64,000 nt of DNA, taken from a virus. Made by a program: the position numbers and the translations under genes. Positions within the stretch are counted from its first letter, which is position 1. Every line of letters starts with the position of its first letter. This document shows positions 18,584 through 46,701 of the stretch, piece after piece. A model generated the notes under the pieces. That model was given only the letters and a program-made list of their open reading frames with translations. It had not been told where the DNA came from and did not search any database. Location of the stretch: positions 27,487 to 91,486 of the IMG/VR virus record IMGVR_UViG_3300043420_000984; one strand, given 5' to 3'.

Positions 18584-18640
18584 CAACTGTCACAGGGGGT
18601 CCAGCACCCCCTTTTTCGTGCCCTATACTATTCTCATCAA
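18584..18640 (+). promoter_or_regulatory. Intergenic cassette: box, terminator hairpin and -10 for the helicase gene
   Basis: An AACTGTCACAGG box is followed by a GGGGGT/ACCCCC stem (18595-18611), five T, and TATACT (18624-18629), 23 bases before the helicase ATG. This is the first copy of a punctuation element that recurs more than twenty times in the window. Confidence 0.65.
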
Positions 18641-18651
18641 CAGCGCACCAG

Positions 18652-19896
18652 ATGACCCTCACTCTTCGCCCCCATCAGCAGCGTATGCTCGATGCTCTGC
18701 TGACTGCCTCTAAAGGTCGCGTGACCTGCCCTACGGGCGGCGGCAAGACCCTTGTGATGATCCTTGACTGTCTGCGTCGCCTGCAGCAGGCAGACCGCCC
18801 TCAGACGATCGTGGTGGTCTCTCCTCGCATCCTGCTGTCGGTCCAACTCTATGAAGAGTTCTTTGCTGAACTGAATGGCAAGGTGAATGTGGAAGTTCTC
18901 CATGTTCATAGCGGTGAGGTTGATGGCATGAGCACCACCAAGATCGATATGATCCAGTGCCATGATGTTGTGTGTGAGACTGCTGGTGTTCATCAACTGA
19001 TCTTCACCACCTACAACTCTCTTCGCCGTGTGAATGAGGCAGGCATCGATGTAGATACTATCTACTATGATGAGGCGCACAACTCTGTTCGCCGTGACTT
19101 CTTCAAAGAAGTTGCTGCTGCTACTCTGACTGCCAAGAATGCTTACTATCTGACTGCCACCCCTAAGTTTCGTGGCGGTGTGATCAGCATGAACAACACT
19201 GATGTGTATGGTTCCGAGTTGATCTCTGTTCCTGCTCCTGAGTTGATCAACAACGGTAGCATCATTCCTCCTACTGTGCAAGCTCACGTTGTAGATTTCG
19301 AGCGTAACAAGTCTCTGCTCGCTGCAGAGAATGACCGTGAAGTGCTGATGGATATTGTCAGCAAACTCGATGGTGATAGTGCCCAGAAGATCCTGGTTGC
19401 TGCTCCCAACACTCGTGTGCTGTGGGCGCTGCTGTCGCAAACTAACGTGATGGCAGAGTTTGCTGCTCGTGGTTATGATGTGCTTCACATCACCAGCAAG
19501 CATGGTGCTTACATCAACAAAAAGAAAGTAGGTCGTCAAGAGTTCTTCGATACTCTTGATGCCTGGGGTAAAGATCCCAACCGTAAGTTCATCATGTTCC
19601 ACTACAGCATCCTGTCTGAAGGTATCAACGTCCCTGGTCTCACCCATACTATTCTCCTTCGCAATCTGCCCGTGATTGAGATGGCGCAAACCATCGGTCG
19701 TGTGATCCGTCTTGACCGTCAGGATGCTGCTGACATCGCTGCTGGTAAGATCACTCCTGGCAAACTGGAGATGTATCGCAAGCGTACTGGTTTCGTGACT
19801 GTGCCTGTCTTCACCAACTATGGTAAGCAGACTGAGAAGCGCCTGCAAGCGGTTGTGGATACCATCTTTGTCAAGGGTCAATCCCTTATCGGTTGA
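18652..19896 (+). CDS. SF2 DEAH-box helicase (414 aa), UvsW/ResIII-like
   Basis: Motifs are in order: Walker A CPTGGGKT (residues 26-33), DEAH (about 140-143, YYDEAHNS), motif III LTATP, and motif VI QTIGRVIRLDR near 345. This is a complete two-RecA-domain SF2 translocase, shorter than T4 UvsW and without its N-terminal domain. It probably unwinds branched DNA or RNA-DNA hybrids during replication and recombination. The codons are markedly GC-richer at third positions than in the left module, suggesting separate ancestry. The ATG follows a terminator-promoter cassette. The long antisense ORF here is a codon-bias shadow. Confidence 0.85.
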   Translation: MTLTLRPHQQRMLDALLTASKGRVTCPTGGGKTLVMILDCLRRLQQADRPQTIVVVSPRILLSVQLYEEFFAELNGKVNVEVLHVHSGEVDGMSTTKIDMIQCHDVVCETAGVHQLIFTTYNSLRRVNEAGIDVDTIYYDEAHNSVRRDFFKEVAAATLTAKNAYYLTATPKFRGGVISMNNTDVYGSELISVPAPELINNGSIIPPTVQAHVVDFERNKSLLAAENDREVLMDIVSKLDGDSAQKILVAAPNTRVLWALLSQTNVMAEFAARGYDVLHITSKHGAYINKKKVGRQEFFDTLDAWGKDPNRKFIMFHYSILSEGINVPGLTHTILLRNLPVIEMAQTIGRVIRLDRQDAADIAAGKITPGKLEMYRKRTGFVTVPVFTNYGKQTEKRLQAVVDTIFVKGQSLIG

Positions 19897-19925
19897 GTAA
19901 ATAGTAATCAATCATGGAGATTAGC

Positions 19926-20102
19926 ATGGACGACAAGCAACGTAAGCAGAAAGATGCTCTCGGTCTATTCATTGAGAGTGTCTTGAAACCAGACCATGAG
20001 CTACGCCAGTGTGCCCATAACCAGAAATGTTACAATGAACTGCTGGAATGGCGCGAAAGTGTGCTAGAATATCTCTACGCGAAGAGAAAAGACTTCGAAT
20101 GA
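19926..20102 (+). CDS. Small unknown protein (58 aa)
   Basis: A helical, charged protein (DDKQRKQKDALGLFIESVLK) with two Cys near its middle (RQCAHNQKCYNE). I chose the ATG at 19926 because GGAGA sits at optimal distance before it; an in-frame ATG at 19914 lacks this. The stop overlaps the next start (ATGA), so it leads a five-gene coupled operon. Function unknown. Confidence 0.55.
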   Translation: MDDKQRKQKDALGLFIESVLKPDHELRQCAHNQKCYNELLEWRESVLEYLYAKRKDFE

Positions 20103-20428
20103 AACTAAATCCCACTAACCCCTACGTTTTTACTATGACAGGACATGAGTACGTGACTGAAGGACGCCCTAATGTGAGTGTAGATTGGAAAGCGGAGTAT
20201 GCTAAGCAACGCAAAGATCGTTTGGCAGACAGTATCCACGAGTATCTTGAGGATAGTGACGTGAGTATCCTAGAATTCTATAACGATCTGCGCGATATTA
20301 TTGTGGAGATCAATACTTACCACAAAACCTTCGCTGAAAAGGCTGAGGGCGCCCTGCTGCTGGTCCATGGCAAACCCAAGACCGAAAATGGTGATGTTGA
20401 ACCTCCTGCGGAAGCCTGGAATGGATGA
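20099..20428 (+). CDS. Unknown protein (109 aa)
   Basis: The start at 20099 overlaps the upstream stop, preferred to the longer form from 20048. A helical segment (SIHEYLEDSDVSILEFYNDLRDIIVEI) precedes an Ala/Gly-rich tail. No family recognised. It is part of the coupled operon 19926-21050. Confidence 0.5.
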   Translation: MKLNPTNPYVFTMTGHEYVTEGRPNVSVDWKAEYAKQRKDRLADSIHEYLEDSDVSILEFYNDLRDIIVEINTYHKTFAEKAEGALLLVHGKPKTENGDVEPPAEAWNG

Positions 20429-20570
20429 GAAAACCAAACTGATCCTTGCACAGATGCAAATAAATAACCTCGTCGAACTGCTGAAAGGCAACGAATACGA
20501 GCAGTATTTGTATCACAAACTTATCACTGTCGATGTAGAACTGAAGCGCCAACTATCTCACCATGACTGA
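20421..20570 (+). CDS. Small helical protein (49 aa)
   Basis: It starts inside the end of the previous gene and ends inside the next one, with overlaps of 8 bases at each end. It is an almost wholly helical peptide (EKTKLILAQMQINNLVELL), possibly a small coiled coil that pairs with the next gene's product. Function unknown. Confidence 0.5.
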   Translation: MDEKTKLILAQMQINNLVELLKGNEYEQYLYHKLITVDVELKRQLSHHD

Positions 20571-20784
20571 AGACGATTTTAAGAAAGCAATCGAAAATGT
20601 TCTGATGATGCAGAATAATAACGATGCAAACTTCCAAATTTTACAAGCACAAAATGATAGATTGCAGTCTCAAATTGATGGACTGAAACAACAACTATCC
20701 GAATTGAATGATCTCAAGGAGATGTTCCGTCTTCCTAAACCAGAGAACAAAGATCGTCAATTGTTTGAAGTAATTGACGAATGA
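20563..20784 (+). CDS. Coiled-coil protein (73 aa)
   Basis: Residues ~20-55 show heptad spacing of hydrophobics (ILQAQNDRLQSQIDGLKQQL), a clear coiled coil. Together with the preceding 49-aa helical protein it could form a helical complex. It overlaps its neighbours by 8 and 4 bases. No enzymatic motif. Confidence 0.55.
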   Translation: MTEDDFKKAIENVLMMQNNNDANFQILQAQNDRLQSQIDGLKQQLSELNDLKEMFRLPKPENKDRQLFEVIDE

Positions 20785-21050
20785 CTTTCAAATATGGTAC
20801 GATGGTAGAATACCGCAACGTTCGCGGTTGGGTCAATTTCATTGACGATCAGTACATTACTATCTGTTATATTGACAGACCAGATAGATCATCTCATACT
20901 GGTCGTTACCAAGCAAACCTTGTAGTTTTTCGTGAGTATTGGAATGAAGTACGCAGTTGTGTGGATGAAACAAAAAAAGAACAAGCAGACGAAACAACAA
21001 GCTATTTTCTACAATCTAGAGGATGCGATTATGTGGGAGCAGCATGTTAA
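20781..21050 (+). CDS. Small unknown protein (89 aa)
   Basis: The N-terminal half is a short beta barrel-like pattern (YGTMVEYRNVRGWVNFIDDQYITICYI), as in small SH3-like or KOW-like folds; the C-terminal half is charged and helical with two Cys. It is the last gene of its operon; a hairpin-promoter cassette follows. Confidence 0.5.
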   Translation: MTFKYGTMVEYRNVRGWVNFIDDQYITICYIDRPDRSSHTGRYQANLVVFREYWNEVRSCVDETKKEQADETTSYFLQSRGCDYVGAAC

Positions 21051-21080
21051 TATGACAGAACATGCTAAAACAGAAATCCA

Positions 21081-21151
21081 CCCCGTCTTCGGGGACAGTT
21101 GAAAAAGTGGTACGGGGGGCGATTGACACCGCCCCTTTTTCATGCCATAAT
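21081..21151 (+). promoter_or_regulatory. Double hairpin and -10 element before the nuclease-like/methyltransferase pair
   Basis: There are two stems: CCCC/GGGG at 21081-21094, and GGGGC/GCCCC around 21115-21135 followed by TTTTT. CATAAT (21146-21151) then lies 22 bases before the ATG at 21174. This is a variant of the recurring terminator-promoter cassette (box GTTGAAAAAGTGGTACGG). Confidence 0.55.
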
Positions 21152-21173: not shown

Positions 21174-22019
21174 ATGACACCACTCCAACGCCTTGAGTCT
21201 ATTCTAACTGCAGTTTATGATAATGCTAGACATCTAGAAACTGCTGCTGATCAGGTGTATATGTCATGCTTCCGAACAGGAACTGACCTCACTTCCTTGT
21301 TGGACAATATTCAATCTGACATGATGTTTGATGTAGATAATTTTAGTGAAGCATCTGCTGGTAATATTTTCGGTTATATACGAGAAGAATTTCGTGAATG
21401 TGTCTCACGTTTTGTCAATATTACTGCTGGTGGTAATGGTGGCATGGCATCTATAGGTCGTGGTGAATTCATGATTTCGTTTGCTAGTAACTTTAAAGCT
21501 AAGATTAGCAAGGCAGGTAAGGGTGATCTTGAATATGTCATCAATCTTATTAACGAAGAAGTAAAGCGGATTAACGAAGAAGTAAAGTGGAATGGTGGTA
21601 AAATCGAAGTATCTAAAACTCAGGGTAAGGAAGTTTATAAGGAGTTTATCTCCCTATTGAAAGAGAATAATGATATTGATCTTATCATCAAGGACTTTCT
21701 TCCCTTTCGCAAAAAAGATAAGAAGGTGTATGACGCTGACACTATCAATCTCCTGAATTCTTATTTCTGGCAAGCGGTTTCTGGGCAAAAATGTGGTCCT
21801 CTTACAGATGCTGAGTTGAAAAAACTCTGTCTCCGCTGTGCTTTTGATCTTACTTTTACTAAATCAGATTCTATTCTCATTGTCAATGAAGATGGTAAGT
21901 TTGTTCGCTTTACAAATGTAGATAATGCTGTAGAATATTACCAAAACAAAATTGATGAGGTTGATCTAGAAATTCGTGCTAAACAAACTAATCCCATTGC
22001 CATTTACTTATTTGTATGA
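21174..22019 (+). CDS. Possible PD-(D/E)XK nuclease-like protein (281 aa) paired with a methyltransferase
   Basis: The centre reads SIGRGEFMISF, then GKGDLEYV, then NGGKIEVSKTQGKE. That spacing of Glu, Asp and E-x-S-K after a beta hairpin resembles PD-(D/E)XK nucleases of restriction type (GE...GDL...KIEVK), but the last motif is not canonical. It overlaps the methyltransferase start by 4 bases (ATGA), the classic arrangement of a restriction-modification pair. It could instead be an inactive regulator or an unrelated protein. The family assignment is my inference. Confidence 0.4.
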   Translation: MTPLQRLESILTAVYDNARHLETAADQVYMSCFRTGTDLTSLLDNIQSDMMFDVDNFSEASAGNIFGYIREEFRECVSRFVNITAGGNGGMASIGRGEFMISFASNFKAKISKAGKGDLEYVINLINEEVKRINEEVKWNGGKIEVSKTQGKEVYKEFISLLKENNDIDLIIKDFLPFRKKDKKVYDADTINLLNSYFWQAVSGQKCGPLTDAELKKLCLRCAFDLTFTKSDSILIVNEDGKFVRFTNVDNAVEYYQNKIDEVDLEIRAKQTNPIAIYLFV

Positions 22020-22783
22020 CTTTTGATTTACAACTAGGTGACTGTCTGGAACTCATGAAAGAGATTCCAGACGAATTCATTGATTTTATTTGTTGCGATC
22101 CACCCTACGGCACTACCAGCATCAAATGGGACGAGATTTTGGATTTTGATGCTATGTGGGAGCAGTATGGTCGCATCATTAAGCCCAAGGGTATGATGTG
22201 TCTGTTTGGATCACAACCATTCTCCGCGCAGTTGATCTGTTCGAAGATCAATTGGTTCAAGTATGAACTGGTGTGGAATAAGAACAAGTGTGGTTCTCCT
22301 GGTCTTGCCAAGTATAGACCTATGAAAACACATGAGAATGTACTTTTATTTGCCAAGAATCCTGGTGGTATCTACAACCCACAGATGGAGGAGGGAGAAC
22401 CATATGCTCGCAAGAGCAAGAATCCCGAGGGATATGTTGGACGTAAGAATGACCATGGATATGGTATGAAACCACGCAAGGAGTTTGAGAACAAAGGTAC
22501 GCGCTACCCTAAGTCTGTTTTGAACATCTCACGCGACTTCAGCGCACAACAGCAAGTACATCCCACACAAAAGCCCGTGCCTTTGATGGAATGGTTGATC
22601 AACACATACTCCAATGAGGGTGATACCGTGCTTGATAATTGCATGGGATCTGGTTCTACTGGTGTTGCTGCCGTTAAATTGCGCCGTAATTTTATTGGTA
22701 TGGAATCTGACGCGGAATATTACTCCGTGGCAGAGAAAAGAATAAAAGAAGTAGATAGGGTTGACATTAATAATTTTTTGTGA
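22016..22783 (+). CDS. DNA adenine methyltransferase, beta class (255 aa)
   Basis: Methylates DNA at N6 of adenine (or N4 of cytosine) using S-adenosylmethionine. Motif IV DPPYG is at about residues 30-34 and motif I DNCMGSGSTG near 210. The order IV, target-recognition region, then I defines the beta class (CcrM/HinfI-like). The C-terminal GMESDAEYYSVAEKRI strand-helix is the usual ending. It probably protects phage DNA from host restriction, or partners the upstream nuclease-like gene. A sigma70 promoter for the next gene overlaps its last codons. Confidence 0.9.
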   Translation: MTFDLQLGDCLELMKEIPDEFIDFICCDPPYGTTSIKWDEILDFDAMWEQYGRIIKPKGMMCLFGSQPFSAQLICSKINWFKYELVWNKNKCGSPGLAKYRPMKTHENVLLFAKNPGGIYNPQMEEGEPYARKSKNPEGYVGRKNDHGYGMKPRKEFENKGTRYPKSVLNISRDFSAQQQVHPTQKPVPLMEWLINTYSNEGDTVLDNCMGSGSTGVAAVKLRRNFIGMESDAEYYSVAEKRIKEVDRVDINNFL

Positions 22784-22789
22784 TATAGT
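22761..22789 (+). promoter_or_regulatory. Consensus sigma70 promoter
   Basis: TTGACA (22761-22766), exactly 17 bases, then TATAGT (22784-22789). It overlaps the 3' end of the methyltransferase gene and drives the 363-aa gene at 22850. It is the best full -35/-10 match seen in the window; most other units have a -10 only. Confidence 0.75.
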
Positions 22790-22801
22790 AGTTCGGTAAT
22801 T

Positions 22802-22824
22802 AGAAATGGACAATTTCCATTTCT
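22802..22824 (+). promoter_or_regulatory. Hairpin in the 5' leader of the 363-aa gene
   Basis: AGAAATGGA and TCCATTTCT form a 9-bp stem with a 5-base loop between the promoter and the AAGGAG ribosome site (about 22837). It may stabilise the leader or act as an operator; no T run follows, so it is not a terminator. Confidence 0.45.
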
Positions 22825-22849
22825 CCCAAACAGTTTAAGGAGACCCATT

Positions 22850-23941
22850 ATGTCTTTCGCAAAACCACCAGAAATTAAGCGAGTTATGTTTAATGACTGG
22901 GTAGATGAAAAAAAGTACAGAGTCAATCCAATTGAAAGACCATACAAGCAACGAGCAAAAAGAGCTGATGTAATTGAACGGTTCAATCCATGGCAGCCTA
23001 CACATTATCTTGGACACGCTACTATTCTTCAAAATGATGACGTTGATGAAGTCAGTGGTATAAAATATAAAAAAGGAACCATATTCAAATTGGATATGCA
23101 CACCAGACCCCAAGTAATTATTAATGGGGATAGTGATGCAACTCCAGAACTAATTGATCAAAATGGCGGATTCATTATTTCCACGGAAAATGCTGATAGT
23201 ATCAAGGATGTGAAGAGACAATATAAGCAGCATGATAGCTCAGAAGCAGTTGAGAAGAGATCTGATGCAATGTATTCTGCTTTCTTTTCCGCTTACTGCG
23301 ATACTCTGATTCCACAACCAGACAATCCTGCTTTTATGAAAGCTCAACCACTTTCATATGCCGCACACTACACATTTGGATGGGATCCAGTAGAAAGAAC
23401 AGGATTCAAAACTGACAGTGGATTGGATCAAGAAACTCTTTCTTATGCTGTAAAAGAGTTTATGCCTTACTTTGATAAACTTGATAACATCACCTTTAAT
23501 ACTAAGAAGATGTCATCAAAAAATGATGCAGCACATGTTTATTCTTGCATCAAATGGGATAGTTGGTTGTATTTTGCCAGTTTGATGACTGGTCATTATC
23601 ATAACTGGTCTCCTGCTTGGTATCATACAGTTTTAAAGATCAACGATTGTGATCTGTCTGGTTTAGATCTTACTGGAAAAAAAGGATCTACAGCACTTGC
23701 TCTCCTCTGCCGCGAATGGGATCAAACTAATGGTGTTCCAGCACATCCAGACAAGCGTTTGAACAAAGGACAATTAGGTAGTGCTTTGATCGATCAATTG
23801 TTCTTTCTATTTGATACTTCTATCAATGAACCCAACAAAAGATTTAAGAGTATTTCATCTGAAAGTGCTGGTTATTTTGATAATTTCTATAAATTCAGGT
23901 TGAACAAAGGTAGGAAGAATAATCTCTCGTTTTTCTTTTGA
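22850..23941 (+). CDS. Unknown protein (363 aa) with its own strong promoter
   Basis: No family recognised. AAGGAG lies 7 bases before the ATG, the clearest Shine-Dalgarno site in this part. The protein is soluble, with many His/Trp/Tyr (SYAAHYTFGWDP, MTGHYHNWSPAWYHTV) and a basic C-terminus (NKGRKNNLSFFF). The strong promoter and following terminator make it a monocistronic unit, probably highly expressed early. Its place after a nuclease-like/methyltransferase pair hints at DNA defence or modification, but no motif shows this. Confidence 0.6.
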   Translation: MSFAKPPEIKRVMFNDWVDEKKYRVNPIERPYKQRAKRADVIERFNPWQPTHYLGHATILQNDDVDEVSGIKYKKGTIFKLDMHTRPQVIINGDSDATPELIDQNGGFIISTENADSIKDVKRQYKQHDSSEAVEKRSDAMYSAFFSAYCDTLIPQPDNPAFMKAQPLSYAAHYTFGWDPVERTGFKTDSGLDQETLSYAVKEFMPYFDKLDNITFNTKKMSSKNDAAHVYSCIKWDSWLYFASLMTGHYHNWSPAWYHTVLKINDCDLSGLDLTGKKGSTALALLCREWDQTNGVPAHPDKRLNKGQLGSALIDQLFFLFDTSINEPNKRFKSISSESAGYFDNFYKFRLNKGRKNNLSFFF

Positions 23942-23942
23942 T

Positions 23943-24000
23943 GTGACACTTTGAGAAGTGGCACAGGGGTCCTCGTGACCCCTTTTTTATGCTCTATACT
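23943..24000 (+). promoter_or_regulatory. Intergenic cassette: box, terminator and -10
   Basis: A GTGACACTTTGAGAAGTGG box is followed by a GGGGT/ACCCC stem (23966-23982), six T, and TATACT (23995-24000). The leader then reads ACTAAGGTAATCGAGAG before the ATG at 24025. Confidence 0.65.
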
Positions 24001-24024
24001 ACTAAGGTAATCGAGAGACACCCC

Positions 24025-24246
24025 ATGCAACTGGTCCAAGGCGCAATGCAAGTTGATTTCTATCCTGCTGCTGGATTGACTGGTAAGTTCGTTCAAGTAA
24101 CTTCTTTTGACGGTAAAGAAATGAGTGAGCGTCTGATCTCCAAGAAAGATATGGAGTATGAAGCAGACTCTCGTATTAACACTTATGGTTACAAAGTGAC
24201 CAAGTTTCACACTTTCCCCCGTGTTAAAGTTATGGTGTGCTGCTGA
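24025..24246 (+). CDS. Unknown protein (73 aa)
   Basis: The start is chosen just after the conserved leader, since an in-frame extension to 23989 would translate the promoter. A small beta-rich protein (MQVDFYPAAGLTGKFVQVTSFDGKE) ending VMVCC. The stop overlaps the next start. Function unknown. Confidence 0.5.
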   Translation: MQLVQGAMQVDFYPAAGLTGKFVQVTSFDGKEMSERLISKKDMEYEADSRINTYGYKVTKFHTFPRVKVMVCC

Positions 24247-24776: not shown

Positions 24777-24941
24777 ATGGCGACCCTAGACACGCAGCAG
24801 CTCCAGTTCCTGATCGACCTGATGTGGGGGCACGATCCCAAGGATACCAGGAAACTGGCGAAGCACCATGGCGTTGATGAGATCAAGCTCCTGTGCCAGT
24901 TGGCAGAGTGTCTCAACAACGCCCTTGCTGAGCTCGACTGA
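24777..24941 (+). CDS. Small helical protein (54 aa)
   Basis: I start at 24777 (MATLDTQQLQFLIDLMWG); an upstream in-frame ATG at 24747 would begin within the likely promoter. The sequence switches here to GC-rich codons. Helical and Leu-rich (IKLLCQLAECLNNALAELD). Function unknown. Confidence 0.45.
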   Translation: MATLDTQQLQFLIDLMWGHDPKDTRKLAKHHGVDEIKLLCQLAECLNNALAELD

Positions 24942-24944
24942 CCC

Positions 24945-24975
24945 TATACTACTAAGGTACTCAAGGGAACGCCCC
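24945..24975 (+). promoter_or_regulatory. -10 element with ACTAAGGTA-type leader
   Basis: CTATACT sits just after the stop and the leader reads ACTAAGGTACTCAAGGGAAC, nearly the same as the leaders before 24025 and 40864. The ATG follows at 24976. Confidence 0.55.
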
Positions 24976-25456: not shown

Positions 25457-25602
25457 TTGAAGAAGTTATGCTTGACCGTCAGATCCTAGAACAACTGGAT
25501 CGCTATGATATTTCCCTAGGATGGGATGACGAACTGCCTGATCTGGATACCGAGTGGGCAGTTGAACAACTGTCACAGGAGGCCCTCCTGCTCCTGTCCT
25601 GA
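25453..25602 (+). CDS. Small acidic protein (49 aa) whose end encodes an intergenic-type box
   Basis: An acidic N-terminal part (LGWDDELPDLDTEWA) runs into AVEQLSQEALLLLS. This end is encoded by a copy of the GTTGAACAACTGTCACAGG box and hairpin found elsewhere only between genes. The gene therefore seems to have captured the cassette by losing its earlier stop. The TATACT for the next gene follows at once. Confidence 0.45.
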   Translation: MIEEVMLDRQILEQLDRYDISLGWDDELPDLDTEWAVEQLSQEALLLLS

Positions 25603-25613
25603 TCCTCTATACT
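25562..25613 (+). promoter_or_regulatory. Cassette box, hairpin and -10 overlapping coding sequence
   Basis: Box AACAACTGTCACAGG, then CAGGAGG/CCTCCTG as an inverted repeat around one base, then TATACT (25608-25613) 27 bases before the ATG at 25641. Confidence 0.55.
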
Positions 25614-27406: not shown

Positions 27407-27547
27407 TTGTTTCCCTATGTCGATACATTCCCGTATCGCCTAGAGGACAAGACCGAAAAGAAAACCTGTTACTTCCAAACTGAAAGCCATGCTCGAAAGT
27501 ACATTGACCGATACAAACCTGAATACCAACTATACTGTTTTGCTTGA
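27407..27547 (+). CDS. Small unknown protein (46 aa, start uncertain)
   Basis: FPYVDTFPYRLEDKTEKKTCYFQTES resembles a short conserved cyanophage protein with a DTFPYRLED motif. No ATG fits; TTG at 27407 is the nearest start codon, and the frame is open far upstream only because it shadows the previous gene. It overlaps the AbrB-like gene. Confidence 0.4.
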   Translation: MFPYVDTFPYRLEDKTEKKTCYFQTESHARKYIDRYKPEYQLYCFA

Positions 27548-27692
27548 GGAAGACGGAGATGATCTCATTCTCCCTATTCCCGATGAGATCCTTGATCAAC
27601 TGGGTTGGGATGACGGTTGCCTACTAGATTGGAGTGTTGATGAGGTAAATAATACTATTATCATCAGCAAGGTGAACGAGGAGGTGATGTAA
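27489..27692 (+). CDS. AbrB/MazE-type swapped-hairpin DNA-binding protein (67 aa)
   Basis: Residues 15-62 (YTVLLEEDGDDLILPIPDEI, LGWDDGCLLDWSVD, NTIIISKV) follow the SpoVT/AbrB pattern of four strands with the central 'ILPIPDEIL' loop. Such dimers bind DNA as regulators or toxin antitoxins. No toxin gene is adjacent, so a transcription regulator is more likely. The upstream gene overlaps its start by 59 bases. Confidence 0.65.
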   Translation: MLESTLTDTNLNTNYTVLLEEDGDDLILPIPDEILDQLGWDDGCLLDWSVDEVNNTIIISKVNEEVM

Positions 27693-29322: not shown

Positions 29323-29513
29323 AGGAATTTCCCGACAAACTAGACCTCAGAATTATGTGGACGGTAGCCACATCGACCAGTATCGAAACTGGCACACCTG
29401 CCTACGAAGGCTTCGCCAGGATGCTGTATGATTACATCACAGACAAAAAACCCCTCGTTGAACTGAACTATGACCTCTATCCGTCAGAAACAAGCACTGA
29501 TCAAGAAACTTGA
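29319..29513 (+). CDS. Unknown protein (64 aa)
   Basis: Short alpha/beta protein (LRIMWTVATSTSIETG, FARMLYDYITDKKP). Overlaps its neighbours by 4 and 44 bases; the long overlap with the zinc-ribbon gene makes the 3' end less certain. Confidence 0.4.
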   Translation: MKEFPDKLDLRIMWTVATSTSIETGTPAYEGFARMLYDYITDKKPLVELNYDLYPSETSTDQET

Positions 29514-30060: not shown

Positions 30061-30332
30061 GTTTTAGCAAGACTATTTCTGTGTTTGCCGCACTCGCTAG
30101 CATCTTTGGTGCTGGAGCTGCTGGATGGAAACTGTCTCAAGAAAATCAAACCAAACCTGTGGAAGTACAACAAGATATATCTGTATTTGAGAATAAGATC
30201 AACGAACTTGAAAAGAAACTAGAAGAAGCAGAAAAACCACAAGAACAACCTGTGATCGTGCAGCAACCTCAACCGCAGATCCTACCACCTCTCCCCCCTA
30301 TGCCCGAACCCAAACCAGGAGAGTTTGAGTGA
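30057..30332 (+). CDS. Membrane-anchored coiled-coil protein with proline-rich tail (91 aa)
   Basis: Residues 6-24 form a membrane helix (TISVFAALASIFGAGAAG), 45-58 a short coiled coil (KINELEKKLEEAEK), and the last 25 residues are a Pro/Gln tail (LPPLPPMPEPKPG). The layout resembles phage spanin or holin-accessory proteins, but no lysis neighbour is present. It ends the operon; a cassette follows. Confidence 0.5.
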   Translation: MSFSKTISVFAALASIFGAGAAGWKLSQENQTKPVEVQQDISVFENKINELEKKLEEAEKPQEQPVIVQQPQPQILPPLPPMPEPKPGEFE

Positions 30333-30386
30333 CACTCTGACAACTGGCACACCACCCCATGAGGCAGGGGGGTTTCGCCTTATAAT
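30330..30386 (+). promoter_or_regulatory. Intergenic cassette: box, terminator and -10
   Basis: Box GACACTCTGACAACTGGCAC, a CCACCCC/GGGGGG stem followed by TTT, and TATAAT (30381-30386) 23 bases before the ATG at 30410. Confidence 0.65.
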
Positions 30387-33632: not shown

Positions 33633-33690
33633 AGGACACTTGAAGAACTGGCACAGGAGCATCCCACAGGTGCTCCTTTTGCCCTATAAT
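33633..33690 (+). promoter_or_regulatory. Intergenic cassette (upstream twin): box, terminator and -10
   Basis: GACACTTGAAGAACTGG box, AGGAGCA/TGCTCCT stem (33655-33677), TTTT, and TATAAT (33685-33690). Nearly identical over about 80 bases to the copy at 34241. Confidence 0.7.
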
Positions 33691-33713: not shown

Positions 33714-34244
33714 ATGACCTACACACCAGAACAGATTTCTCAAATTGTCCTTAAGGTTCTTAAGGAAATTGAAGAACCTGATATTCTTAAACTTTCTTAC
33801 CTAGAGAAACTTAAACTTGCAAAAGACCCAAACACATCACAAGAAACTTTAGCAATTCTTGCGACTGATGAGAATTTTGATGTTCGTTATCGGGTTGTAG
33901 TACATCCAAACACATCACAAGAAACTCTAGCAGTTCTTGTAACTGATGAGTATTGGGGTGTTCGTTATGGGGTTGCACAACATCCAAATACATCAACAGA
34001 AACTATAGCAGTTCTTGCAACTGATGAGGATCCTGATGTTCGTTGTTGGGTCGCAAAACACCCAAACACATCACAAGAAACTCTAAATGTTCTTGCAACT
34101 GATGAGGATTCGAGTGTTCGCTATTATGTTAAACAAAACCCAAACTATAAGAAGCAAACTCTTGAACTGAATACAAAACAGTATGATGCCCTGAAGAAAC
34201 TGATTGAGTCTTCACAAGATGAGTCTCTTAAGGATATTATGTGA
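33714..34244 (+). CDS. Leucine-rich-variant (LRV) / HEAT-like repeat protein (176 aa)
   Basis: Four tandem ~24-residue repeats of the form 'HPNTSxETLAVLATDExxxVRYxVAx' occupy residues ~38-140, matching the LRV pattern of alternating helices. They form a curved scaffold for protein or nucleic-acid binding. It lies alone between two almost identical cassettes, so it looks like a self-contained insert. The repeat DNA is also similar between copies, suggesting recent expansion. Confidence 0.7.
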   Translation: MTYTPEQISQIVLKVLKEIEEPDILKLSYLEKLKLAKDPNTSQETLAILATDENFDVRYRVVVHPNTSQETLAVLVTDEYWGVRYGVAQHPNTSTETIAVLATDEDPDVRCWVAKHPNTSQETLNVLATDEDSSVRYYVKQNPNYKKQTLELNTKQYDALKKLIESSQDESLKDIM

Positions 34245-34298
34245 CACTTGAAAAACTGGCACAGGAGCATCCCACAGGTGCTCCTTTTTCCCTATAAT
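34241..34298 (+). promoter_or_regulatory. Intergenic cassette (downstream twin): box, terminator and -10
   Basis: GACACTTGAAAAACTGG box, AGGAGCA/TGCTCCT stem (34263-34285), five T, and TATAAT (34293-34298), 24 bases before the ATG at 34322. Confidence 0.7.
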
Positions 34299-36497: not shown

Positions 36498-36555
36498 GGA
36501 CACTTCCAAAACTGACACAAGGGCACTTGAACTTGGTGCCCTGATGCCCTATAAT
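36498..36555 (+). promoter_or_regulatory. Intergenic cassette: box, hairpin and -10
   Basis: GACACTTCCAAAACTGACAC box, GGGCAC/GTGCCC stem, and TATAAT (36550-36555), 24 bases before the ATG at 36579. Confidence 0.65.
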
Positions 36556-36578: not shown

Positions 36579-36977
36579 ATGAAAATCAAAGTTCTTGAGT
36601 GTCCTCTATGGATTAAACACAAATTCTCTTCGAGGTATTCTTCTAGTTATTTAAAATTTGAATTTGATGAAATTGAACCACTTTTTCATAGAGATGGTTA
36701 TTATTTGATTGATAATAAGTATGTTGTTGTTGAGTATCAGGGATTTGCTTGGAAATGTAAAGATACACAAAATTCCGTAAGGGCATTTCGTTGGGAACTT
36801 GAAGATGCTGAGTATGAAGACATCAATATACTCAGCAAAGAGCAAAGTGATGCGATTTTCACTTTGATGAAGATAAATCTTGCGAGTGAAATGCAGAAAA
36901 ATATTTTTGGAAGGGATTACACTAAAAAACACTCAAAAAAGTTTTCCTTTAAACTAAAAAAGATGGAAGACACTTGA
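36579..36977 (+). CDS. Unknown protein (132 aa)
   Basis: Beta-rich with Phe/Tyr (YLKFEFDEIEPLFHRDGYYL, VVVEYQGFAWKCKD), then a basic C-terminus (DYTKKHSKKFSFKLKKM). Its cassette upstream and another downstream make it a single-gene unit. No family recognised. Confidence 0.5.
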   Translation: MKIKVLECPLWIKHKFSSRYSSSYLKFEFDEIEPLFHRDGYYLIDNKYVVVEYQGFAWKCKDTQNSVRAFRWELEDAEYEDINILSKEQSDAIFTLMKINLASEMQKNIFGRDYTKKHSKKFSFKLKKMEDT

Positions 36978-37025
36978 AGAACTGTCCCACTGACCCCTGC
37001 GGTTGGTGGTTTTATGGTTTATAAT
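36968..37025 (+). promoter_or_regulatory. Intergenic cassette with -10
   Basis: GACACTTGAAGAACTGTCCC box, then TATAAT (37020-37025). The hairpin is weak in this copy. The ATG at 37051 follows the usual short leader. Confidence 0.6.
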
Positions 37026-37050: not shown

Positions 37051-37218
37051 ATGAGAAGCCTTGTTATTCAACGACTGACTACTATTATTGAAGATTGTGA
37101 GGGTATTCCACGATTTTTTGAATCTGATGATTACATTACTGATGCTGAAGAACTTGAAAGTATGAGTGATGAAGAACTTTTGGAGGCATTTGAAACTGCA
37201 GTAGGTTTTGCAGGTTGA
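37051..37218 (+). CDS. Small acidic helical protein (55 aa)
   Basis: RSLVIQRLTTIIEDCEGIPR then DAEELESMSDEELLEAFETA: acidic and helical, of the kind that mimics DNA or binds a host protein, without proof. It is a single-gene unit between two cassettes. Confidence 0.5.
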   Translation: MRSLVIQRLTTIIEDCEGIPRFFESDDYITDAEELESMSDEELLEAFETAVGFAG

Positions 37219-37265
37219 CGAACTGGAACAGGGAGACCCCACAAGGTCTCCTATTGCCTTATAAT
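37213..37265 (+). promoter_or_regulatory. Intergenic cassette: box, terminator-like stem and -10
   Basis: GTTGACGAACTGGAACAGG box, GGAGACC/GGTCTCC stem (37232-37251), and TATAAT (37260-37265), before the ATG at 37293. Confidence 0.65.
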
Positions 37266-37292
37266 ACTCTCGTACACACAAAGGAACATTTT

Positions 37293-40658: not shown

Positions 40659-40863
40659 GGGTTCTTGATACTAATTCGTATCATTATTGAAATGTTTTTA
40701 AATCATAATAAAAATAGGGTTAAGGTGCGGTAGAGATGTTGGCTTAGCACGCTACCACTCGAAAGTCAAGAAGCACTGTGACACTACCCATAGTGTCCCA
40801 AAACCCTCTGCTGGCCTCCCAGGTGCCCTATAATACTAAGGTAGTCAAGGGAACACCCCAAAG
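40659..40863 (+). promoter_or_regulatory. Non-coding gap with hairpins and a cassette promoter
   Basis: TGATAC/GTATCA (40666-40683) and GACACTA/TAGTGTC (about 40780-40797) form stems. Between them GGTAG and CTACC frame a region that looks structured but is not a full tRNA. TATAAT (40829-40834) with an ACTAAGGTAGTCAAGGG leader precedes the ATG at 40864. Confidence 0.5.
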
Positions 40864-41500: not shown

Positions 41501-41662
41501 ATGAGCAACAAAAACTATCGCTACAACAGCAACGATAAGTTTACTGAATTCGACGATGATTTTGAAGACTACGGTTACGACGTAAAGAATATTCGAAGGC
41601 AGAGTAAAAAGAAAGTTACCAAATTCAAGACGCGAGACGACGAATACTATGACAGTTATTGA
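41501..41662 (+). CDS. Small charged protein (53 aa)
   Basis: SNKNYRYNSNDKFTEFDDDF then KNIRRQSKKKVTKFKTRDDE, an acidic half followed by a basic half, as in small nucleic-acid-associated phage proteins. Single gene between the KTSC-like gene and a cassette. Confidence 0.45.
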   Translation: MSNKNYRYNSNDKFTEFDDDFEDYGYDVKNIRRQSKKKVTKFKTRDDEYYDSY

Positions 41663-41706
41663 AGTGGCACAGTAGGGGTTGTGGATGGTCCCTGGTGATG
41701 TATTCT
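41660..41706 (+). promoter_or_regulatory. Intergenic cassette variant with -10
   Basis: TTGAAGTGGCACAGTAGGGG box directly after the stop, then TATTCT (41701-41706), 26 bases before the ATG at 41732. The hairpin is imperfect (GGTCCCTG with CAGGGATC). Confidence 0.45.
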
Positions 41707-41731: not shown

Positions 41732-42004
41732 ATGAACACCAAATACATGGTCATCGGTTTTGGTAGAACTGAGACTGGTTTCTTCAACCAGAAAGCATTC
41801 GCAGGTAGCATCGGATATGCCTGTGGTTTCTATAACGGTCACCTGCAAGATCCTGAGATGGATGGTGCTGTACTGATCAGGATTAATCATGAGGATTGGG
41901 AAGTGATTCAAGAGTTTAATCGTGAGCACTATCCTATCAGCATCGAATACAGCGCCTTGGGTACATTTAGCGTCAAGCAATCCCCTGATCTGGTGATGGT
42001 GTGA
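41732..42004 (+). CDS. Unknown protein (90 aa)
   Basis: NTKYMVIGFGRTETGFFNQK then VLIRINHEDWEVIQEFNREH: alpha/beta, single-gene unit. No recognised family. Confidence 0.5.
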   Translation: MNTKYMVIGFGRTETGFFNQKAFAGSIGYACGFYNGHLQDPEMDGAVLIRINHEDWEVIQEFNREHYPISIEYSALGTFSVKQSPDLVMV

Positions 42005-42059
42005 CGGTCTAGGAACTGGTACAGGGGGTGCCACAGGTGCCCCTACCACCCCTTATAAT
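42004..42059 (+). promoter_or_regulatory. Intergenic cassette with CAGTTCAAAC leader
   Basis: GGTCTAGGAACTGGTACAGG box, a GGGG/CCCC stem, and TATAAT (42054-42059) followed by TACTTCAGTTCAAACAAACC. First appearance of the CAGTTCAAAC leader. Confidence 0.6.
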
Positions 42060-42081: not shown

Positions 42082-42270
42082 ATGCCTACTGCTTCCGAAG
42101 TCCACATGTTTGACCTTGAGATTGCTCCTGCTCTACGTGATTTCATGAGCAATAACATCTGTGACGCAAACGATTGTGTTGATTGGGTGTGTGAGGTGTT
42201 TGATATCAATGCCTCTGATTTTATCATCGATCGTGTGTGTGATGAGTTTGAAGAATTCTTCGGTGAGTGA
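42082..42270 (+). CDS. Acidic helical protein (62 aa)
   Basis: SEVHMFDLEIAPALRDFMSN then FIIDRVCDEFEEFFGE, with three Cys. Start at 42082, after the leader. Acidic single-gene unit; function unknown. Confidence 0.5.
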   Translation: MPTASEVHMFDLEIAPALRDFMSNNICDANDCVDWVCEVFDINASDFIIDRVCDEFEEFFGE

Positions 42271-42326
42271 CGGTCTGAGAACTGTCACAAGGGGGGTTGC
42301 AAGGACCCCCCACCCCCTGTTATCTT
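42270..42326 (+). promoter_or_regulatory. Intergenic cassette: box, GGGGGG/CCCCCC stem, -10-like hexamer
   Basis: GGTCTGAGAACTGTCACAAGG box, GGGGGG (42291-42296) with CCCCCC (about 42306-42311), then TATCTT (42321-42326) before the ATG at 42350. Confidence 0.55.
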
Positions 42327-42349: not shown

Positions 42350-42535
42350 ATGGCAGTCATTCTCAACGGCGGATGCATTCGTATGGCACTGATGGATCGT
42401 CGCTCCGAATTGATTCGTTGTGCCAGCATCACTAAAGATGCAACATTCGACCAAAAGATTCAAGAACTGGACGATGCGTTAATGCAACTTTGGGATGCAA
42501 AAGAAGTGTTGCTCTCCCCAAGTGTGACGGTCTGA
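42350..42535 (+). CDS. Unknown helical protein (61 aa)
   Basis: MAVILNGGCIRMALMDRRSE then FDQKIQELDDALMQLWDAKE. The C-terminal helix could be a coiled coil. Single-gene unit. Function unknown. Confidence 0.5.
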   Translation: MAVILNGGCIRMALMDRRSELIRCASITKDATFDQKIQELDDALMQLWDAKEVLLSPSVTV

Positions 42536-42582
42536 CAAGTGGCACAGGGGGGATTGACCTTCTCCCTGATCTCTGATACATT
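42526..42582 (+). promoter_or_regulatory. Cassette with TTGACC-17-TACATT promoter
   Basis: GGTCTGACAAGTGGCACAGG box, then TTGACC (42554-42559), 17 bases, TACATT (42577-42582). One of few copies with a recognisable -35. ATG at 42604. Confidence 0.55.
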
Positions 42583-42603: not shown

Positions 42604-42783
42604 ATGACTGGTAATTACTTCAACACCAAGATCATTGAGAACCATGATTCTCACATGTACCTGAACAACAGCATGGCAGAGTGCTATGATTTCTGCCTAG
42701 GTGTTGCTGAGGTGATGGAAAGTGTGCCTGATCAGGCATGGTGGGCGGATCAAAAGAAAGGTCACATCTGCTACGACGTGTGA
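42604..42783 (+). CDS. Unknown acidic protein (59 aa)
   Basis: NYFNTKIIENHDSHMYLNNS then VMESVPDQAWWADQKKGHIC. Single-gene unit between two cassettes. No family recognised. Confidence 0.5.
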   Translation: MTGNYFNTKIIENHDSHMYLNNSMAECYDFCLGVAEVMESVPDQAWWADQKKGHICYDV

Positions 42784-42838
42784 CAGTCTGACAAGTGGCA
42801 CACAGGGGGTTGCAATTGCCCCCGATATCCATCATACT
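42782..42838 (+). promoter_or_regulatory. Intergenic cassette: box, stem and -10
   Basis: CAGTCTGACAAGTGGCACAC box, GGGGG/CCCCC stem, CATACT (42833-42838), before the ATG at 42861. Confidence 0.6.
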
Positions 42839-42860: not shown

Positions 42861-43136
42861 ATGACTCTCACTGACATTCAAGTTCAAGAGTTGCTGACTG
42901 CTCACTGCTATCGTGTGTTGAGTAGCATGAATGAGGATGATTTGCTGTCCTATGCCATGCAAATGATGTCACAGTCATTTGATAAGAATCCTGGTCAATA
43001 TGATGTTGATTTGGATATGCTTATCGGTGACATTCTGATTGCAGAGGATGAGGATGAAGAATCCGCTGCTGAATTTATCGTGGGCACTGGTATCGATCCT
43101 GAGGTGGCCGATGCCCTGGTTAACCGCCAGGTGTGA
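42861..43136 (+). CDS. Acidic protein (91 aa)
   Basis: VQELLTAHCYRVLSSMNEDD then a strongly acidic stretch (LIAEDEDEESAAEF) and IDPEVADALVNRQV. Helical, acidic; possibly a DNA mimic by charge only. Single-gene unit. Confidence 0.5.
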   Translation: MTLTDIQVQELLTAHCYRVLSSMNEDDLLSYAMQMMSQSFDKNPGQYDVDLDMLIGDILIAEDEDEESAAEFIVGTGIDPEVADALVNRQV

Positions 43137-43190
43137 CACCTTCCAAACTGTCCACCAAACCCCCCACGGTGCCCCTGAGGGTGCCATACT
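43137..43190 (+). promoter_or_regulatory. Intergenic cassette with -10
   Basis: GACACCTTCCAAACTGTCCAC box after the stop, GC-rich stem, CATACT (43185-43190), leader AACAGAGTCAACCAAAGG before the ATG at 43218. Confidence 0.5.
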
Positions 43191-43217: not shown

Positions 43218-43547
43218 ATGCGTAAGATCGAACGCCAAATGAACGCTGCCATTCGTGACAGCAAGGATTGGAAGTCTGCCAACACCATGGTTACCACTGT
43301 TAATGGTGTTTCCCATGTGTTTCTTCATGGTAACAAGATTGCTGAGGTTGGTGACAACTTCATCGTGCTGATGGATGGTGGTTGGCAATCTAACACCACT
43401 AAATCTCGCCTGAATGCTATCCTGTGTGAGCATGGTTGCCCTGGTGAGTGTGTGTTTCAAGAGAAGTTTCAGTGGTTCGTTAACATGAAGAACGCCAAAG
43501 GTGAGAATATGAAGGTTCCTTTCTTTTCTGGGATGCGTCTAAACTAG
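43218..43547 (+). CDS. Unknown protein (109 aa)
   Basis: KIERQMNAAIRDSKDWKSAN, TVNGVSHVFLHGNKIAEVGD and DGGWQSNTTKSRLNAILCEHG. The 'V.N..S.VFLHGN.IA..G....ML.DGGW.SNTTKSRLNA' pattern is widespread in phages and plasmids as a small protein of unknown function. A strong terminator follows. Confidence 0.6.
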   Translation: MRKIERQMNAAIRDSKDWKSANTMVTTVNGVSHVFLHGNKIAEVGDNFIVLMDGGWQSNTTKSRLNAILCEHGCPGECVFQEKFQWFVNMKNAKGENMKVPFFSGMRLN

Positions 43548-43787: not shown

Positions 43788-43858
43788 TATATTATACTAT
43801 ACTAGTACTAGTATAGTATAAGTCAAGTATAACTGTGCCAGTTTGAGAGCTGGCACAG
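43771..43858. repeat. Three consecutive perfect hairpins
   Basis: ATACTACTC/GAGTAGTAT (43771-43790, loop TG). A perfect 30-bp palindrome with half TTATACTATACTAGT (43792-43821). ACTGTGCCAG/CTGGCACAGT (about 43831-43858). The last contains the CTGGCACAG box of the intergenic cassettes together with its complement. No gene explains them. Confidence 0.75.
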
Positions 43859-43875: not shown

Positions 43876-43957
43876 GGATCCCTCCCTCGCCTCCCTCTAG
43901 TCTAGAGGTCGCCGCGGCCAATTCAAGGGGGTTGCAGACGGTTTGAGAGGTGGCACA
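43876..43957. repeat. GC-rich repeat block A with GCCGCGGCC core
   Basis: Starts GGATCCCTCCCTC, includes CTAGAGG and GCCGCGGCC, continues CAAGGGGGTTG and ends at the GTGGCACA box. Diverged copy of block B at 45186-45270, in the same order. Confidence 0.7.
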
Positions 43958-43987
43958 GAGATGGTCGCAAAGGTGCTGACCCGTGCT

Positions 43988-43993
43988 TATAAT
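43988..43993 (+). promoter_or_regulatory. -10 element (CCGTGCTTATAAT type)
   Basis: TATAAT in the context GACCCGTGC, followed by GATCAAGACAACC leader; ATG at 44018. Confidence 0.6.
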
Positions 43994-44017: not shown

Positions 44018-44251
44018 ATGACTGACACTTTCTTCAAGACCTTCGCTAACACTTTGGTCTACAACATCGCCACGATTGTTGCTATCATCGTGGCAGTAGT
44101 TAGCTATACTTACCGTGCTGCCCGAGTTTGGTATAATGAAGGCGGTCGTGAGTTTCTGATCACTAACGCCTGTAAGTGCATGGCATTTGTTAACAAAATG
44201 GCAGAACAGGCATACTACCGTCTGGAGGATGCTGAGACCGCCGCGGCCTAG
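44018..44251 (+). CDS. Small membrane protein (77 aa)
   Basis: NTLVYNIATIVAIIVAVVSY is one membrane helix, followed by a basic YRAARVWYN. The rest has two Cys and ends ETAAA, encoded by a GCCGCGGCC element overlapping the stop. Start at 44018 since longer frames would translate the promoter. Confidence 0.5.
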   Translation: MTDTFFKTFANTLVYNIATIVAIIVAVVSYTYRAARVWYNEGGREFLITNACKCMAFVNKMAEQAYYRLEDAETAAA

Positions 44252-44309
44252 TACAGTCTGACAAGTGGCACAGGGTCAGTCGCAACCTGCCTCACCCTGT
44301 GCCTATAAT
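44252..44309 (+). promoter_or_regulatory. Cassette box and -10
   Basis: CAGTCTGACAAGTGGCACAGG box, then CCTGTGCC-TATAAT (44304-44309) and leader GACCTCAGTTCAATTC before the ATG at 44332. Confidence 0.65.
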
Positions 44310-45185: not shown

Positions 45186-45270
45186 GGATCCCGCCCTCTT
45201 GCCTCCCTCCAGCATAGAGGCGGCCGCGGCCGATTGCAAGGGGGTTGTGGGCAGTTCGACTGGTGGCACA
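45186..45270. repeat. GC-rich repeat block B with GGCCGCGGCC core
   Basis: GGATCCCGCCCTC, GCCTCCCTC, ATAGAGG, CGGCCGCGGCC, CAAGGGGGTTG, GGTGGCACA: same elements and order as block A. A second GGCCGCGGCC and an 8-bp stem GGCCAGTA/TACTGGCC (45153-45177) lie just upstream. Confidence 0.7.
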
Positions 45271-45299
45271 CTGGTGGTTGTGGTGGGGTCGCTCCACCC

Positions 45300-45305
45300 T
45301 ATACT
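45300..45305 (+). promoter_or_regulatory. -10 element
   Basis: TATACT followed by AAGGGAGTCAAACGC leader, 25 bases before the ATG at 45331. Confidence 0.55.
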
Positions 45306-45330: not shown

Positions 45331-45516
45331 ATGTGGGATGAGATCCAAGACATGCCTGGTGAGATCTTCGACATCTCAGACGAGACCCGCGACGAGATGG
45401 CCGCGGCCTGGGCAGACGATGCCGAGGAGGAGCCAGGGTGGGATCTGATGGGATGGGACGATGATCAGGCCCTGGAGGAGTTCTCCCTGGAGTGCGCCTT
45501 CGGCCCTGAGGAGTGA
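45331..45516 (+). CDS. Very acidic protein (61 aa)
   Basis: DEIQDMPGEIFDISDETRDE then AAAWADDAEEEPGWDL: about a third Asp/Glu. The EMAAAWAD segment is encoded by a GGCCGCGGCC element inside the gene. DNA mimicry is possible by charge; no fold evidence. Confidence 0.5.
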   Translation: MWDEIQDMPGEIFDISDETRDEMAAAWADDAEEEPGWDLMGWDDDQALEEFSLECAFGPEE

Positions 45517-45572
45517 CAGTCTAAGGGGTGGCACACCTGCTGCCCCTTCCCTCTCCACCCTGTGCCTATAAT
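45516..45572 (+). promoter_or_regulatory. Cassette box and -10 before ArdA-like gene 1
   Basis: CAGTCTAAGGGGTGGCACACC box, CACCCTGTGCC-TATAAT (45567-45572), leader GATCAAGTCAACC; ATG at 45598. Confidence 0.6.
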
Positions 45573-46090: not shown

Positions 46091-46190
46091 ATTGTCTCAT
46101 TTCAACCTGCCTCACCTGCCCGTCGTCAAGGCATCGGGGACAGTAGACGAGCTGGCACTCGGTCTCCTGCGATCGGTCCTCACCCGTGCC

Positions 46191-46196
46191 TATAAT
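46191..46196 (+). promoter_or_regulatory. -10 element, CACCCGTGCC-TATAAT class
   Basis: Preceded by CTCACCCGTGCC and followed by GACTGCAGTTCAGACAAGC; ATG at 46219. Confidence 0.65.
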
Positions 46197-46218
46197 GACT
46201 GCAGTTCAGACAAGCACC

Positions 46219-46422
46219 ATGCACAAGATCAACACCCTCGGCAGCGACGCCATCAAGCGAATGACCGTCGATCCCTTGAAGGGCAGCGTTCGCGTTTGCT
46301 TCTGGAGCGGCGGTAAGGTCTACCGCTTCGATGGCGTCTCCCGTCGTGCCATCCTCTCCCTGATGGCATGGCAGGATCGCAGCTTGGGCCAGTGGGTGAA
46401 CCGTCACTGCCTCGCTCGCTGA
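46219..46422 (+). CDS. KTSC-domain protein, copy 1 (67 aa)
   Basis: GSVRVCFWSGGKVYRFDGVS then RRAIL and GQWVNRHCLAR: the KTSC strand pair with 'YRF.GVS' and a C-terminal 'G.W.NRH'. KTSC proteins are widespread and of unknown function. It closely matches the gene at 48769, which is in a different order of neighbours. GC-rich codons. Confidence 0.65.
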   Translation: MHKINTLGSDAIKRMTVDPLKGSVRVCFWSGGKVYRFDGVSRRAILSLMAWQDRSLGQWVNRHCLAR

Positions 46423-46438
46423 CCCCATCCCGACCCTG

Positions 46439-46456
46439 TAGACTAACCTCAGTTCA
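46439..46456 (+). promoter_or_regulatory. -10 (TAGACT) with CAGTTCAAACG leader
   Basis: CCCTGTAGACT then AACCTCAGTTCAAACGACC; ATG at 46467. No Shine-Dalgarno site is visible in the leader. Confidence 0.65.
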
Positions 46457-46466
46457 AACGACCACG

Positions 46467-46655
46467 ATGAACCTGACCGAATCGACCGCCCTCGCCATCG
46501 CCATCGTTCACGCCAACTGCCCCCATGCCGCTGATGGGCACGTTCGCTCCCTCCATCAGACCACTGAGGGTGCCGAGATGCTGCGCCTGATCGTTCGGGA
46601 TGATCTGGCGGGTGCTGCCGACATCATCGCCAACGCCCTGATGGGCAATCTCTGA
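46467..46655 (+). CDS. Unknown protein (62 aa)
   Basis: TESTALAIAIVHANCPHAAD then GAADIIANALMGNL. Ala-rich, helical. Single-gene unit. GC-rich codons like its neighbours. Function unknown. Confidence 0.5.
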   Translation: MNLTESTALAIAIVHANCPHAADGHVRSLHQTTEGAEMLRLIVRDDLAGAADIIANALMGNL

Positions 46656-46656
46656 A

Positions 46657-46701
46657 GTGGCACAAGAGGGGGCAGAGATGCCCCCATCCTGGCTCTAGAC
46701 T
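46657..46701 (+). promoter_or_regulatory. Terminator stem and -10 (TAGACT)
   Basis: AGTGGCACAAG box, GGGGGCA/TGCCCCC stem, then TAGACT (46696-46701) and leader CAACAGCAAACGACCC; ATG at 46723. Confidence 0.6.

Follow-up and report, generated by a model that had tools for sequence, protein, structure and literature searches.

A palindromic box at constant distance from early promoters in a T4-like cyanophage: a probable activator operator within promoter/terminator cassettes

What is the function of a short sequence that recurs between the small genes of a phage variable region, each time just ahead of a −10 element? We addressed this question in a 64,000-nucleotide stretch (the window) comprising positions 27487-91486 of the 91,486-bp IMG/VR virus record IMGVR_UViG_3300043420_000984; feature positions are counted within the window. 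A sequence-only reading had noted that a conserved box, a GC hairpin and a −10 element follow one another directly after stop codons. The closest relatives of the window are the T4-like Synechococcus cyanophages S-PM2, S-H9-1, S-WAM2, S-CREM1, ACG-2014h/e and S-RSM4, and the source is a virus of marine cyanobacteria. T4-like cyanophages are among the most abundant ocean viruses, and the cyanomyoviruses lack alt, modA, motA and asiA; how their early and middle transcription is controlled without these T4 takeover proteins has been described as unclear (PMC2984593). We consider it likely that the cassette is an activator operator of early promoters, set in a composite of promoter and terminator and probably read by a phage protein.

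A box at constant distance from the −10 element

A weight matrix for the box, started from the copies in the window and then refined with 440 unique sites, gave the consensus TGMCASTT-N4-AASTGGCACA. A joint scan with this matrix and a −10 element at +50 to +53 returned 32 plus-strand places between 18,573 and 49,385, and none when the window sequence was reversed or complemented. At two of these places the call as a cassette is doubtful: the match at 29,375 is weak and falls in coding sequence, and the box at 43,836 belongs to a divergent promoter. The exact box string, with three mismatches or fewer, was matched three times in the window compared with zero times in 100 shuffles. The recurrence, first placed at 18.6-46.7 kb, is thus real and more extensive than had been noted: copies do fill that range, and further ones reach 49.4 kb, making about 31 at 18,573-49,442 and nearly none in the rest of the window. 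The box is not scattered at random through coding DNA, as there were only five matrix hits scoring at least 12 outside 30 cassettes, and the divergent box at 43,836 accounts for two of these, one hit per strand.

Among 30 cassettes, the mean pairwise identity was 62% for the box and 79% for the −10 element, compared with 32-34% for the hairpin/spacer and 25% for the upstream flank. The box is therefore under constraint and the stems are not, in agreement with the sequence-only reading.

The distance between box and −10 element is rigid. The box start lay 51-53 bp from the −10 element in 24 of the 25 window copies collected first, and overall its left edge is 50-53 bp upstream irrespective of the intervening sequence. 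When the spacing was not imposed, 47 strong −10 elements were found at box +50 to +53, with at most two at any other offset. With boxes of either orientation included, the window together with eight related cyanophages had 85 pairs at 50-53 bp, against 1, 4, 2, 4 and 5 at control spacings. Across IMG/VR, the pattern with the right gap was present in at least 120 stretches; gaps of 35-37 gave 8 and gaps of 23-25 gave 18. These last 18 form a separate class, where the box abuts a TTGACT −35 element and lies 6 bp nearer. In this second spacing class (IMG/VR L145-L162) the −10 element is about 46 bp past the box start, mostly ahead of one conserved gene family.

The −10 element, present in nearly every cassette, marks a predicted sigma-70-like early promoter ahead of a small gene. 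A −35 element with at least four of six matches was present in 33% of 416 unique sites, compared with 9% at shifted positions. In the pooled sites a CATA initiator is conserved and the ATG is mostly 21-25 bp past the −10 element; in nearly all window copies the first ATG is 21-27 bp downstream. Because the initiator is conserved, the start site was taken as 7 bases past the −10 element, which would put the palindrome centre at about −53 to −55. The places found in the window are as follows (numbers after 'forward', 'reverse' or 'score' are matrix scores).

18573..18629, plus: cassette; box 18573-18594, terminator-like hairpin and T run, −10 TATACT; upstream stop in box; predicted to drive helicase open reading frame (ORF) 18652
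21093..21151, plus: cassette; box, hairpin GGGGGCG-ATTGACAC-CGCCCC and T run, loop −35 TTGACA, N17, −10 CATAAT
23944..24000, plus: cassette; box, hairpin and T run, −10 TATACT
24894..24950, plus: cassette; inverted box (reverse 29.1, forward 15.9) in end of ORF 24747-24941, no hairpin, −10 TATACT at +51
25556..25613, plus: cassette; box, hairpin, −10 TATACT
29375..29432, plus: doubtful cassette in coding DNA; box score 17.9, TATGAT at +52
30330..30386, plus: cassette; box TGA is the upstream stop, hairpin, −10 TATAAT
33634..33690, plus: cassette; box, hairpin and T run, −10 TATAAT; 96% identity over 84 nt with the 34242 copy
34242..34298, plus: cassette; box TGA is the upstream stop, hairpin and T run, −10 TATAAT
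36498..36555, plus: cassette; box, hairpin, −10 TATAAT
36968..37025, plus: cassette; box, hairpin and T run, −10 TATAAT
37209..37265, plus: cassette; box, hairpin, −10 TATAAT
40779..40834, plus: cassette; box stronger on minus strand, no strong hairpin, −10 TATAAT; apparently also serves a divergent minus-strand element
41650..41706, plus: cassette; box, hairpin, −10 TATTCT
42002..42059, plus: cassette; box, hairpin, −10 TATAAT
42268..42326, plus: cassette; box, hairpin with TTGCAA, weak −10 TATCTT
42525..42582, plus: cassette; box, hairpin with −35 TTGACC, N17, −10 TACATT
42781..42838, plus: cassette; box, hairpin with TTGCAA, N17, −10 CATACT
43134..43190, plus: cassette; inverted box (reverse 19.9, forward 9.8), −10 CATACT; ahead of Kyano_Gp96 gene 43218
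43836..43857, no strand assigned: box; no plus-strand −10; minus reading TTGACT and TAGTAT at +51 (divergent promoter)
43936..43993, plus: cassette; box, no strong hairpin, −10 TATAAT
44251..44309, plus: cassette; box, −10 TATAAT
45249..45305, plus: cassette; box, −10 TATACT
45514..45572, plus: cassette; box TGA is the upstream stop, no hairpin, −10 TATAAT
46138..46196, plus: cassette; box, no significant hairpin, −10 TATAAT
46387..46444, plus: cassette; inverted box (reverse 21.3), no hairpin, −10 TAGACT
46643..46701, plus: cassette; box, strong hairpin, −10 TAGACT
48127..48185, plus: cassette beyond the range first noted; box, −10 TAGAAT
48407..48464, plus: cassette; box, hairpin, −10 TAGACT
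48937..48994, plus: cassette; box stronger inverted, −10 TAGAAT
49188..49245, plus: cassette; weak box (score 6.6), box TGA is the upstream stop, −10 TATAAT
49385..49442, plus: cassette; weak box, −10 TAGAAT

Palindromy of the box and the optional hairpin

The box reads as a palindromic site, TGMCASTT-N4-AASTGKCA, with the half-site TGTGMCASTT. The matrix correlated with its own reverse complement at 0.83, a value reached in none of 5,000 column permutations. The inverted reading scored higher in 29 of the 85 box/−10 pairs; among the inverted window boxes are 24,894, which lies within the last part of an ORF and has no hairpin, and 40,779. The boxes at 40,779 and 43,836 apparently serve divergent promoters. 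Palindromy, free orientation and a constant distance to the core promoter are the general marks of an operator for a dimeric activator, and the box has all three. Together with the restriction to early genes, they lend good support to an activator site, one of the roles suggested for the box at the outset.

On the minus strand at 40700-40800, the box is followed by CTTGACTTTCGAKWGGTAGCGTGCTAAGCCAACATCTC, which is strongly conserved in seven cyanophages with no long ORF behind it. An Rfam search of window 15-54 kb gave no matches, this conserved stretch included, and it is perhaps the divergent promoter of an uncharacterised RNA.

The hairpin is an optional part of the cassette and is often an intrinsic terminator within the promoter. 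A strong stem was present in 43% of the 416 unique sites compared with 12% in shuffles, and 155 of the 416 had neither a strong stem nor a −35 element. In the window the hairpin is strong in about 17-18 copies and missing from about a dozen, so the suggestion that selection maintains its presence holds for a subset only. In some copies stem and −35 element are fused, as in GGGGTC-TTGACA-GACCCC plus a T run, where the −35 lies in the loop (window 21,093, S-CREM1, S-H9-1 and ACG-2014h). The order in which a stop codon precedes the box also needs amending, as the box often includes the stop itself: the upstream stop codon ends −3 to +12 from the box start in 17 of the 32 window copies and is often the TGA of the box.

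Distribution of the operator and its possible reader

The element was found in S-PM2, S-WAM2, S-H9-1, S-RSM4, ACG-2014e/h, S-CREM1 and Syn9. In the window it occupies a variable, novel-gene-rich (hyperplastic) stretch bounded by tail-fibre/helicase genes and gp25/gp6, and the variable regions of S-PM2, S-WAM2 and S-H9-1 lie in the same place. Syn9 has composites at seven plus-strand places (1134, 48560, 51002, 51213, 52998, 127494 and 148744), several of them in the early cluster and ahead of gp32 and gp150. Those of S-PM2 and Syn9 precede early/hypothetical genes, the pre-gp32 region, helicase, CobS and the gp150/Peptidase family; no composite was found among the structural genes of the window, S-PM2 or Syn9. 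There were no box hits in T4 (50 kb tested) or P-SSP7.

The hosts were also searched. In 300 Cyanobiaceae genomes the full palindrome occurred three times, which is about chance. The half-site with a −10 element occurred four times in 400 Cyanobiaceae genomes. Three of these occurrences share a contig of a single genome, and one locus on that contig matches cyanophage genes; the same query gave 11 occurrences in nine phage records. On these counts the operator is private to phages, which favours a phage-encoded binding protein.

These counts bear most directly on the best-surviving alternative, in which a host transcription factor reads the box and the phage exploits an existing host activator. 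Early genes need to be transcribed before phage proteins build up, the T4 takeover genes are missing, and NtcA sites have been proposed for cyanophages (PMC3037559). We nevertheless regard a host factor as unlikely, given that both patterns are at or below chance in the host genomes. The box also resembles neither the NtcA site GTA-N8-TAC, which the 440-site matrix does not contain, nor the CRP site TGTGA-N6-TCACA (the gap here is 14).

From computed features, namely palindromy, spacing, free orientation, confinement to phage early regions and hairpin enrichment, we infer activation rather than repression, a phage origin and a candidate identity for the protein, and the positions of the transcript ends. 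In the preferred reading, every cassette would form a complete boundary of early transcription units in a T4-like cyanophage. The palindromic operator, about 53-55 bp ahead of the predicted start, would be bound by a dimeric activator that the phage itself most likely encodes. This activator would bring host RNA polymerase of the sigma-70 type to the promoter, in which the −10 element and initiator are usually good and the −35 poor. If the gene upstream has to be terminated, the spacer between box and −10 element would also hold an intrinsic terminator hairpin. As the upstream stop codon is often within the box, one element of about 60 bp would close one gene and open the next; the cassette thereby illustrates how little DNA can accommodate a terminator, a stop codon, an operator and a promoter. 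The cyanomyoviruses lack the four T4 genes named above (PMC2984593), so that an activator of this kind would close a genuine gap. We tentatively suggest, as a possibility that falls somewhat short of probable, that in T4-like cyanophages without Alt, ModA, MotA and AsiA a private operator and a phage-encoded activator run an early or delayed-early regulon, with the operator packed together with upstream stop codon, terminator and −35 element, and with the activator perhaps carried in the virion and perhaps a small MazE/AbrB-like protein.

The conserved uncharacterised proteins of Syn9 and S-PM2 were screened for a candidate reader, and the window encodes one:

27489..27692, plus: MazE/AbrB-type DNA-binding protein, single copy in 9/9 box-bearing phages; candidate box reader

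This protein matches Pfam MazE_antitoxin, the S-WAM2 homologue scoring above the cut-off. Its family has one copy in each of nine box-bearing cyanomyoviruses and was not found in T4 (50 kb) or P-SSP7. The protein is a candidate activator or an orphan antitoxin.

Several points weigh against a phage-encoded early activator. Kyano_Gp96 (43218-43547) is distributed across the nine phages like the MazE/AbrB-like protein; since this co-occurrence does not discriminate, the latter is a lead only. Operator binding is putative and the start sites are predicted. An activator of early genes made by the phage would have to arrive with the virion or depend on an immediate-early promoter that works without an activator, and neither was identified. 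The same palindrome in its strict 24-bp form, TGTGMCASTTNNNNAASTGKCACA, occurs in 44 stretches of genome contigs (L167-L210), several-fold above chance, and clusters in Nostocales-type cyanobacteria and Acidobacteriota beside unrelated genes. A common neighbouring gene of these Nostocales and Acidobacteriota copies was looked for and none was found; a broader binding protein could exist. Finally, the site at −53 might belong to a repressor or dual regulator, which is taken up below.

The exactly spaced operator, shared by many cyanophages and absent from hosts, opens the question to direct binding and reporter tests, and it provides a search motif for early genes of uncultured phages.

Known systems and other explanations

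The composite resembles the known PeSL (early promoter plus stem-loop) cassettes, with an operator added and the stem-loop optional, and is not categorically new. In T4-type phages, PeSL cassettes (Arbiol et al. 2010; Comeau et al. 2014), as they are summarised in PMC4503421, share with ours a compact early promoter and a stem-loop between small variable genes in a hyperplastic region. By comparison with that summary, the cassettes here add a palindromic operator at constant distance, the stem-loop is optional (a stem-loop terminator is present in a subset, about half of the window copies), and an excess of recombination over other gene junctions is not clear. Early promoters of T4 and T4-like phages (RB49, RB69 etc.) have the same sigma-70 type −10 element ahead of early and novel genes (PMC1524935). 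In those promoters a −35 element is accompanied by a UP-like, A-rich region from −40 to −44 (PMC1524935); most of the present sites lack a −35, and the palindrome that they have instead, at about −53, is rich in GC. The MotA box of T4 middle promoters, TGCTTTA, would lie 11-13 bp ahead of the −10 element, and no conserved column was found there in the 416 sites. CRP-type class I promoters share a dimer-type operator upstream of a weak −35 element, with constant spacing and free orientation; their centre is at −61.5 compared with about −53 here, the palindrome also differs, and the reader here is only a candidate.

The likeness of TGGCAC in the box to the −24 element of sigma-54 promoters was considered, and this reading was ruled out by the TATAAT at constant distance downstream. 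Cyanobacteria are not known to have sigma-54.

A 2016 study by Doron et al. (ISME J 10:1437) of Syn9 and P-TIM40 reportedly described a novel regulatory element of early genes, said to be abundant in T4-like cyanophages. The box operator, which lies upstream of early genes in Syn9, may be this element. Our literature search, which did not extend to the text of Doron et al. 2016, found no description of the box motif.

The PeSL resemblance raises the alternative that the cassette is kept mainly as a mobile joint for module-shuffling homologous recombination, with the box as crossover sequence. Similarity to S-PM2 is confined to the cassette in non-homologous contexts at 33632-33719 and 37215-37287, near-identical 84-nt copies lie at 33635/34243, and the modules at 46-49.5 kb stand in a different order from those of S-PM2, their ends coinciding with cassettes. 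Alignment ends at cassettes numbered 36 compared with 17.3 in random shifts (2.1-fold, p=0.0008). Most of this signal was lost against other gene junctions, the fairer control (10.2 ends per kb at cassettes compared with 8.7), so that a recombination joint, also proposed by the sequence-only reading, lacks specific support. Moreover, crossover homology does not need the 50-53 bp spacing, the palindromy or the free orientation of the box. Puxty et al. 2015 found few PeSLs in S-PM2 and thought them an unlikely cause of its ORFanage (PMC4503421). Shuffling at cassettes may happen; that it is their purpose does not follow from the data and seems improbable to us.

We give about the same low probability to a repressor operator, through which a late-made phage repressor would silence early promoters. 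Such a site would equally be palindromic, phage-specific and limited to early genes. However, the centre at about −53, the rigid spacing and the good −35 element in only one-third of promoters fit activation better, and a simple repressor site has no need of such exact spacing.

An RNA-level element, in which the box would form part of the 3′ end of the preceding gene's transcript and act in processing or termination, would suit its place at gene 3′ ends beside terminator hairpins and with a stop codon within, but is very improbable, because about one-third of boxes are inverted, which an RNA signal would not tolerate, divergent promoters apparently share two boxes, one box lies in coding DNA, and the spacing is set to the −10 element regardless of the hairpin, which many copies lack.

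Some further observations concern the genes around the cassettes. In window 46183-49454, compared with 21534-24330 of S-PM2 (L009), small GC-rich genes are reordered and many alignment ends fall in cassette leaders (TATAATGACCTCAGTTCAAACGA). A protein with LRV/HEAT repeats is encoded at 33714-34244; it has 78-bp internal repeats. The 84-nt cassettes on either side of its gene are nearly identical (96%), and the gene looks as if it had been inserted between them. At 35700-36497 there is an ORF of the homing-endonuclease type (NUMOD3/I-HmuI-like) with an inverted repeat, GACGGCAATCTCTA...ATTGCCGTC, just before it, and this looks like a separate insertion. From 54082 up to the window end at 64000, beyond gp25 and gp6, the ORF list contains no long frame that is complete; by synteny with S-PM2p081, this part is probably one giant virion-protein ORF that exceeds the window.

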